64,000 nucleotides of DNA, taken from Paludibacteraceae bacterium. Lineage in GTDB: Bacteria; Bacteroidota; Bacteroidia; Bacteroidales; Paludibacteraceae. Positions 2,980 to 60,949 of this stretch are shown piece by piece. The DNA lies in contig JAFTIM010000015.1 of assembly GCA_017456885.1 (NCBI GenBank), forward strand, positions 1 through 64,000. The letters are read 5' to 3'. Position 1 is the stretch's first letter. The number at the start of each line of letters is the position of its first letter. The translations under genes were made by a program, and so were the position numbers. The notes beneath the pieces were generated by a model that saw nothing but the letters and a program-made list of their open reading frames with translations, made no database searches and was not told the DNA's origin.

Positions 2980-3036
2980 ATAAATAACTACATTTTTTCC
3001 TCCACTTCTATTATTCGGCTATCGGCATTGCTCCGC

Positions 3037-3295
3037 AGCACCATCAGTTTGAGTTCGTGTACGCACATAAAAACAACGTGGTGCTAAACTCTTCTTTAGG
3101 TCTTTCGAGGTCTTAGGATACCCACCACCAAATATTGAAGTAAAGCCCACGTTTTACACGTGAGCATTAACTTTACTTCTCTGGTGGTTTTTACAAAAAG
3201 TTCCTAAGTTTCTGAAAGACCAGAATATCAAGTTAACGCTTGTTTTCTATTATTTTTCAAGATGTGCGTAAAAATTACGCTTTTATTTCATAGGC
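3037..3295 (-). ncRNA. Structured RNA element, copy 1 (unrecognised family)
   Basis: Read on the minus strand, the element starts with TTTTGCCTATGAAA (3299-3286). Next comes hairpin HP1 (3275-3280 with 3266-3271). A long rod follows: 3214-3221 with 3099-3106; 3202-3208 with 3112-3118; 3182-3187 with 3122-3127 (or 3125-3130); 3171-3179 with 3137-3145; apical 3158-3162 with 3148-3152. Then come AGCACCACG and TTTTTATGTGC. A perfect 9 bp long-range helix (3262-3270 with 3060-3068) competes with HP1. A 7 bp helix (3079-3085 with 3037-3043) encloses the 3' strand of that helix, giving a possible pseudoknot. The order and the unpaired blocks match copy 2 at 60566-60836, while the helices differ by compensatory changes. 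It fills the otherwise gene-free 2980-3384. It lies in the 5' leader of the 88 aa gene or is processed from it. Confidence 0.8.
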
Positions 3296-3324
3296 AAAAT
3301 GTTTTTATTTGTTATAAATCCGTA

Positions 3325-3332
3325 CAAATATA
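3325..3332 (-). promoter_or_regulatory. TAnnTTTG promoter of RNA element copy 1
   Basis: On the minus strand TATATTTG matches the Bacteroidetes -7 element exactly. A TTTTG lies about 17 nt upstream and may be the -33 element. The predicted start is near 3318, about 20 nt before the conserved GCCTATGAAA block, as in copy 2. Confidence 0.7.
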
Positions 3333-3384
3333 GTAAAAACGTGTTTACACAAAACCGTCATTGGATAGATAAAAAAGAATATCC

Positions 3385-60083: not shown

Positions 60084-60527
60084 TTACTTATTAAACAACG
60101 AAAACGAGTTTTTGAAGGCTGATTTTTTTGAAGGATTGAAAAGCGGAGTTTTCTCCCAAATACTGTCAGGAAGGCTATGGAAGTTTTTATACTTTGCAGG
60201 ATAACCTTTTACATTTATAACTTGAATTTTTCCAAAAAAGTTTTCTTTTGTGGTATATTGCAACCCGACTAAAACATCGTAATCGCCAGCCTTTCTCAAA
60301 GCCTCTGCTACTGCTGTTTTTATTACATTATCTCGACCTCCGTTTACAACAACCTTACTTGGTGTATAAGAAAAAGTAATGGACTGTTCCGACACTTCCA
60401 AATCGGCAATAGTTACAGTGTTGATATAAGAAGTAGGGTCTTCCATTCTTGCCGTTTGTTTTACGGTTGTACACGATGTTGCTAATAAAGCGATAAAAAG
60501 AATTGTTATTAAATTTCTTGTATTCAT
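60084..60527 (-). CDS. Small lipoprotein of RNA-led operon 2
   Basis: 147 aa, signal peptide with lipobox ATSC (Cys19). The mature part is mixed alpha/beta, with VADLEVSEQSITFSY-like strands and a conserved-looking DYDVLVGLQYT. I do not recognise a family. It is the first gene downstream of RNA element copy 2, whose last helix ends 38 nt before its ATG. Confidence 0.75.
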   Translation of the reverse strand: MNTRNLITILFIALLATSCTTVKQTARMEDPTSYINTVTIADLEVSEQSITFSYTPSKVVVNGGRDNVIKTAVAEALRKAGDYDVLVGLQYTTKENFFGKIQVINVKGYPAKYKNFHSLPDSIWEKTPLFNPSKKSAFKNSFSLFNK

Positions 60528-60565: not shown

Positions 60566-60836
60566 AAGCACCTAAGAATATGGGGTTGTGTGCACATAAA
60601 AATAGCGTGGTGCTTTGCTTTTTATTTGGAACCTTAGGATTTAACTGGACTACCTCTCTCACCAAACTACGAACAAGCCCACGCAATCGCTTACGTGAAC
60701 GCTTTTGGCTTTTTGTTCTTGGTGAGAAACTCTTAAAAGTGTCCAGTTTTTAAGGTTCCAAGTTTATTAGCTAAACGTTATTTTCAATATATTTTCAAGA
60801 TGTACACACTTTTTACAGTGTTATTTTTTCATAGGC
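60566..60836 (-). ncRNA. Structured RNA element, copy 2 (unrecognised family)
   Basis: Read on the minus strand it has the same order as copy 1. It begins TTTTGCCTATGAAA (60840-60827) followed by HP1 (60817-60821 with 60806-60810) and the identical block ACATCTTGAAAA. The rod is: 60751-60761 with 60626-60636; 60741-60748 with 60643-60650; 60719-60726 with 60658-60665; 60713-60718 with 60671-60676; apical CACG/CGTG 60694-60697 with 60680-60683, carrying the shared TCACGT and CGTGGGCTT. Then come AGCACCACG and TTTTTATGTGC. A long-range 10 bp helix (60800-60809 with 60588-60597, one G-U) competes with HP1; a 7 bp helix (60609-60615 with 60566-60572) closes the possible pseudoknot. It fills the gene-free region 60528-60949. 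Confidence 0.8.
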
Positions 60837-60859
60837 AAAAAATTTTATCGTTAATGATG

Positions 60860-60867
60860 CAAACATA
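60860..60867 (-). promoter_or_regulatory. TAnnTTTG promoter of RNA element copy 2
   Basis: Minus-strand TATGTTTG. The predicted start is about 17 nt before the conserved GCCTATGAAA. No good -33 is seen at the usual distance. Confidence 0.6.
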
Positions 60868-60949
60868 GTAAAAAAAGAGTTTAATCTATGTATCAAGTTT
60901 AAACAAGATTCAGCAACGGTAAACGTGTCATCGTTTAAGTTTTTCTTTC

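Follow-up and report, generated by a model that had tools for sequence, protein, structure and literature searches.

A multicopy structured leader RNA upstream of probable surface and secreted protein genes in Bacteroidia, a candidate transcription attenuator

Attenuators of the trp and T-box types lie between a promoter and a gene and have mutually exclusive helices, one of which is a G+C-rich stem followed by a U-run, an arrangement that they share with the leader described here. Two-codon minigenes provide a second point of comparison: lambda bar is a start-stop minigene consisting of AUG, one codon and UAA. In the eukaryotic ribosome shunt of the CaMV type, a short ORF ends immediately before the base of a long, structured leader, and the mini-ORF of our leader likewise ends just 5' of the structured leader base. 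The mg2 minigene of axe-txe is also an AUG-one codon-UAA start-stop ORF (PMC8708949). DUF805 RNA (RF03081) is, like our leader, a cis-regulatory RNA, and it adjoins one leader copy (locus L118). Within the Bacteroidetes, Flavo-1 RNA (Rfam) is also multicopy, and some of its matches fall on 5' regions that are transcribed in F. psychrophilum (PMC9723704). The same study reports 64 structured 5' regions, some without an Rfam match, and 3161 candidates are given in another study (PMC8040213). We found no description of the present element in the literature, in a search that did not extend to the candidate tables of these two studies, with which partial overlap is possible.

An earlier note on the 64,000-nt stretch of DNA analyzed here (the window) described two copies of one RNA, in which five sequence blocks were said to be identical and the intervening helices to have changed on both arms while remaining paired, as expected for a selected RNA structure. 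The five blocks are indeed identical and in the same order in copies 1 and 2, each occurring exactly twice in the window when both strands are considered; outside these blocks, BLASTN aligned the two copies only in short pieces. The helices are also present as claimed, with the changed but still paired outer rod formed by GGTCTTTC/GAAAGACC in copy 1 and GGAACCTTA/TAAGGTTCC in copy 2, and HP1 formed by GCGTAA/TTACGC and ACACT/AGTGT, respectively. Two copies alone are insufficient proof of compensation, so more copies were collected. RNAalifold analysis of 36 copies gave 37 pairs, 25 of them with double changes, and a covariance model (R1, 248 positions) was built from 36 aligned copies for homology searches. 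Shuffled controls, named in the note as a possible refutation, were not equally good: none of 200 shuffled sequences was as stable as copy 2 (predicted fold of -77.9 kcal/mol, z = -5.1), and none of 500 shuffles reached the level of pairing observed across 102 copies. With this multicopy alignment and the swap tests and pair counts presented below, the evidence that the RNA structure is under selection, with compensatory change in its helices, extends far beyond two copies. The first reading was right but understated, as it missed the pseudoknot, the mini-ORF, the mutually exclusive helices with their terminator, the class-wide, multicopy nature of the leader and its position before secreted-protein genes.

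A DNA search of the whole source genome (1.92 Mb, 22 contigs) yielded 12 matches, with more obtained from relatives, and a pattern scan of public genomes detected a near-identical organization in Paludibacteraceae and other Bacteroidales MAGs. Model R1 matched 41 places in the source genome, 32 of them with scores of at least 50 bits and one, a weak match, lying antisense to another copy; the number of copies in this genome, as estimated from such sequence searches, is roughly 32-40. Some other genomes of the order contained 27-34 matches each. Overall, 118 of the 295 Bacteroidales genomes sampled contained matches, as did 26 of 296 genomes sampled across the phylum, most of these 26 belonging to other orders within the same class. 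In a batch of 16 genomes, R1 had no match in seven non-Bacteroidota genomes, Sphingobacterium yanglingense or an Aequorivita MAG, suggesting that the model is specific and the family patchily distributed. No Rfam 15 family overlapped the element at gathering score in the window or at 34 distant loci, relaxed thresholds gave only chance matches on near and far copies, and the Flavo-1 covariance model matched none of the copies scanned. The window contains no tRNA or tmRNA.

The coevolution of the helices was evaluated with 102 copies aligned to the covariance model. In this alignment, 94.4% of the modelled pair cells were paired, and there were 746 double-change cells, versus 209 in shuffles; the covariation score was 0.544, versus 0.189 after shuffling (0/500 as high), and slid versions scored far below. 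As the alignment had itself been fitted to the structure, we added a strand-segment swap test, comparing the stability of each copy's own 5' and 3' strands with that of its 5' strand combined with the 3' strands of other copies. The swaps leave some relatedness among copies. Eight unrelated strand pairings used as controls gave z values of -1.9 to +2.4. The criterion for a structured RNA, compensatory retention of pairs above the level of controls, was met, and we consider the existence of a selected, class-wide leader RNA to be close to certain.

The swap tests supported a closing helix, three rod helices, an apical hairpin, a 3' pseudoknot and alternative helices, the strands of which are located below by their coordinates in the window, all on the minus strand. 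P1 (z = -14.4, double changes in 9/10 pairs) pairs a 5' strand at 60799-60809 with ATGTGCACAC (60588-60597, also supported by pair counts) in copy 2, and TACGCACATC (3261-3270) with ATGTGCGTA (3060-3068) in copy 1. The outer rod helix, P3 (z = -38.6), has its strands at 60751-60759 and 60628-60636 in copy 2 and at 3214-3221 and 3099-3106 in copy 1. P4 (z = -18.4, 98.6% of cells paired) joins ACTGGAC (60741-60747) to GTCCAGT (60644-60650) in copy 2 and CTTAGGA (3202-3208) to TCCTAAG (3112-3118) in copy 1, and P5 (z = -33.4) has its two sides at 60713-60728 and 60657-60676 in copy 2. The apical hairpin, P7 (z = -10.9), extends from 60677 to 60700 in copy 2 (GTTCACG...CGTGGGC) and from 3145 to 3165 in copy 1. 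HP1 (z = -9.1), a local hairpin that competes with P1, is found at 60806-60821 in copy 2 and at 3266-3280 (GCGTAATTTTTACGC) in copy 1. In the pseudoknot (PK, z = -10.5), the segment just 5' of the U-run (AGCACC in copy 2) pairs with a downstream GGTGC, the 3' strand being AGGTGCTT (60566-60573) in copy 2 and GGTGCT (3037-3042) in copy 1; other copies have GTACC/GGTAC, GTGCC/GGCAC, GTTCC/GGAAC, GTCTC/GAGAC or GTCCC/GGGAC. Support was weak for P2 and P0 at the base of the rod (z = -6.3 and -4.4), which may be alternative helices. Kissing of two local hairpins, HA and HB, is not claimed, as HB displayed no coevolution (z = +2.0) and HA only weak coevolution (z = -6.8); the pairing of the HA and HB loops, which corresponds to P4, is strongly supported.

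An additional conserved segment is present 3' of the pseudoknot in many copies (window positions 3016-3035 for copy 1; loci L003, L006, L017, L020, L035 and L039). It has the form CGG-AG.AA...GAAAAG-CCG, followed by a purine-rich GTGGAGG/GAGTAGAG stretch, and the CGG and CCG at its flanks seem to covary (TTGG/CCAA in L003). A coding reading of this CGGAG...GTGGAGG segment was rejected: the reading frame varies among copies, and the segment is therefore read as RNA or DNA rather than protein.

A TAnnTTTG box, of the Bacteroidetes -7 type, was found no more than 95 nt upstream from 70 of 99 copies, versus 9% of AT-matched windows; the box is TACTATGTTTGC (60859-60870) in copy 2 and TACTATATTTGT (3324-3335) in copy 1. 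The functional extent of copy 2 is larger than the 60566-60867 described in the earlier note, given the positions of this box, of the mini-ORF (60821-60832) and of the end of the pseudoknot strand, at 60566. Downstream, 93 of 102 copies are followed by a same-strand ORF start within 230 nt of the U-run, with a median distance of 86 nt for genes scored as having a signal peptide. An N-terminus resembling a signal peptide was predicted for 75 of these 93 led genes (38 with a lipobox), versus 79 of 213 other long ORFs, on the basis of a crude home-made heuristic with a deliberately generous rule. The led genes belong to several families, including those of small lipoproteins and large surface proteins, with secretion, not one pathway, in common; in other orders, they include apparent TonB-dependent receptors, as judged by eye from their N-termini. 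Copy 2 leads a gene for a 147-aa putative lipoprotein (MNTRNLITILFIALLATSC..., ORF at 60084-60527, no Pfam family), and a GH20 hexosaminidase is encoded two genes beyond it on the same strand. The genes upstream of leader copies vary in function and occur in both orientations, and loci that are apparently orthologous, according to these upstream genes, retain their copies. The criteria for a cis-acting leader (a nearby same-strand gene, a common function class and an upstream promoter) were met, and the leader is probably an on/off switch for the making of surface or secreted proteins.

Several features of the neighborhoods were recorded separately. Downstream of copy 1, positions 2325-2979 of the minus strand contain short ORFs of 88 and 131 aa with no Pfam family, which precede a gene for a 646-aa surface protein with DUF6359 and InlB-type repeats. 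Copy 2 (window position 60840) and the G003 copy at L019 are 99% identical across the RNA and the downstream gene, but this homology breaks off only a few bases from the 5' end of the RNA, and different genes lie upstream; the break reads as a putative recombination or misassembly at the element. Small helix-turn-helix genes (XRE-like by eye) recur beside copies, either directly after the U-run or divergently upstream (L185, L191, L021 and L152; divergent in L194, L195, L197, L201 and L202). At L118, the DUF805 RNA (positions 1844-1909) lies about 110 nt downstream of a leader copy and just before a membrane-protein gene, such that two leader RNAs appear to be in tandem. Finally, contigs C6, C16 and C12 of genome G000 (L002, L005 and L007) break off a short way into the lipoprotein gene that a copy leads; the 3' sequence is common to L002 and L005, suggesting that the downstream genes are repeated.

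The dispersal of many copies, together with the end of the copy 2/L019 match near the RNA 5' end, beyond which the upstream DNA differs, might also be expected of mobile or repetitive DNA of the MITE-like type, with palindromic arms mimicking RNA helices. We regard this explanation as highly improbable: copies within one genome are only about 69-74% identical to one another and are not, therefore, fresh; internal loops and strands are conserved while the helices covary; a gene follows on the same strand; and the apparently orthologous loci keep their copies. BLASTN of the leader against plasmids and phages gave no match, and thus no sign of carriage by such elements. The copies could, alternatively, encode a stand-alone, trans-acting structured RNA for which the U-run is the normal 3' end and the secreted-protein neighbors are coincidental. 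The many copies per genome, with a promoter box and a terminator-like end of their own, would be compatible with such an RNA, which nevertheless seems improbable to us, because orientation and distance to the signal-peptide genes are constant and the conserved, coevolving P1 and PK strands 3' of the U-run would be pointless if the RNA ended there.

Two strands have two coevolving partners each in the swap test on 102 copies. The first, TACGCACAT, has a local partner in HP1 and a long-range partner in P1. The second, GCGUGGGC(UUU), may pair with the P7 5' arm or with (AAAGC)ACCACGC, the latter pairing being the terminator stem (Pterm, z = -11.8). As GCGUGGG is common to P7 and Pterm, the criterion of a mutually exclusive, coevolving antiterminator helix was met. 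In copy 2, the shared strand is GCGTGGGCTTG (60674-60684), the 3' strand of the stem is CAAAGCACCACGC (60605-60617), the AGCACC of which doubles as the pseudoknot 5' strand, and the U-run, TATTTTTAT (60596-60604), lies directly 3' of the stem; in copy 1, ACGTGGGC (3142-3152) pairs with TAGCACCACGT (3076-3086), followed by TGTTTTTAT (3067-3075). Pterm has 31 double-change cells, versus 8.5 after shuffling (0/500 as high) and more than in any slide, its covariation remaining modest because its core is nearly invariant. It has a median length of 13 bp and ends 1-3 nt 5' of the U-run. When the best partner of the GCGUGGG strand was identified without T anchoring, at least five of the next 9 nt were T in 101 of 102 copies, and the further criterion for an attenuator, a coevolving terminator stem followed by a U-run, was also met. 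A U-G wobble in P7, retained in 87/102 copies, is consistent with the G being kept for its second, terminator partner. A simple terminator scan detected the P7 hairpin alone; it is blind to Pterm because the terminator loop is unusually long (about 60-80 nt).

The reading that we favor, with somewhat more confidence than doubt and in the absence of transcript, termination or expression data, is transcription attenuation by exchange between the rod and the terminator. The leader lies, on sequence evidence, 3' of a Bacteroidetes-type promoter and would act in cis on genes for surface or secreted proteins, in response to an unidentified signal, which might be a protein, a small molecule or the state of the envelope. 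Formation of the P3-P4-P5-P7 rod would hold the GCGUGGG strand in P7, allowing RNA polymerase to read through; if the rod were prevented from forming, or opened, this strand would pair with CCACGC to form an intrinsic terminator, and transcription would end before the gene. The 3' strands of P1 and PK lie 3' of the U-run and cannot, therefore, influence whether termination occurs; once the polymerase had read through, these two pairings would lock the rod. Predicted stabilities favor the rod over the best terminator-stem fold (median difference, 16.7 kcal/mol), and termination would thus depend on kinetics, folding order or a trans-acting factor. This difference in stability, the coevolution of both HP1 and P1 despite their common strand, and the location of the coevolving pseudoknot between the rod and the start codon are the points in favor of the main rival, a post-transcriptional leader in which the choice between P1 and HP1, together with the pseudoknot, governs the initiation of translation or the stability of the mRNA, without termination. 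We consider this rival unlikely, although it cannot be dismissed lightly: it leaves the terminator layout of 101/102 copies unexplained, and the main start codon generally lies some tens of nucleotides past the PK strand, such that direct occlusion is not obvious.

Attenuation may have translation as an input in one subfamily. GCCTATG, or a close variant, is present near the 5' end of 69/102 copies, and a stop codon follows at codon 2-4 in 60 of these 69, versus a mean of 18.9 and a maximum of 33 in 2000 shuffles; relatedness among copies was not removed from this count. The first TAA or TAG was in frame in 60 copies and out of frame in seven. In copy 2, the mini-ORF is ATG AAA AAA TAA, and in copy 1, on the evidence of the same stop count, it is ATG AAA TAA (3283-3291). 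The criterion for a mini-ORF, retention of a start and an in-frame stop despite sequence change, was met, and the variability of the middle codons (AAA, GAA, ATA, GTA, GCA, ACA and others), with a constant stop frame, points to translation. A ribosome ending on the mini-ORF would cover the HP1 5' arm and favor P1. However, the mini-ORF is not universal: 33/102 copies lack it and retain the rod and terminator, and it is therefore an accessory of a subfamily rather than the core function. The same observation weighs against a hand-off, in which ribosomes would load on the mini-ORF, terminate at the leader base and reinitiate, as in a shunt, at a main start brought near by P1. To our knowledge, moreover, no ribosome shunt is known in bacteria. 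We give such a hand-off little credence, despite the position of the in-frame stop just 5' of HP1/P1 in the 60 copies and the predominance of UAA as the stop (53/68), UAA minigenes having been reported to favor peptidyl-tRNA drop-off (PMC8708949).

An RNA of about 250 nt that recurs about 32-40 times in a small genome, and occurs in many families, would rank among the most repeated bacterial cis-regulatory RNAs described. Most of the genes led look as if they encode surface or secreted proteins, the proteins deciding the interactions of gut and environmental bacteria with hosts and polysaccharides. It is conceivable, but no more than a tentative proposal, that this class-wide bistable leader, with its tens of copies per genome and its coupled mini-ORF and rod/terminator switch, provides global control of the surface proteome in Bacteroidia, the output of many unrelated envelope and secreted proteins answering a single common signal (secretion capacity or the state of translation, for example); if true, this would constitute an unrecognized layer of control. 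The alternative pairings point to mutations that can be tested directly, and the start-stop mini-ORF opens to experiment a possible link between gene control and the termination of translation.

A structured attenuating leader is a known kind of element, but neither Rfam nor the literature found describes this family, the number of its copies, their association with secreted proteins or the start-stop mini-ORF. The leader differs from Flavo-1 in the absence of any match to that RNA on the copies scanned, and from DUF805 RNA in having a model of 248 rather than 68 positions, with no overlap between the two elements. It differs from the CaMV-type shunt in being bacterial and in lacking the short ORF in a third of copies. 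Unlike those of lambda bar and axe-txe mg2, its mini-ORF lies within a structured leader and is kept across many families. Finally, unlike trp-type and T-box attenuators, with no Rfam relation to them, it has an antiterminator in the form of a rod of more than 100 nt and a long terminator loop, and it is present in about 32-40 copies per genome, before unrelated genes for secreted proteins.
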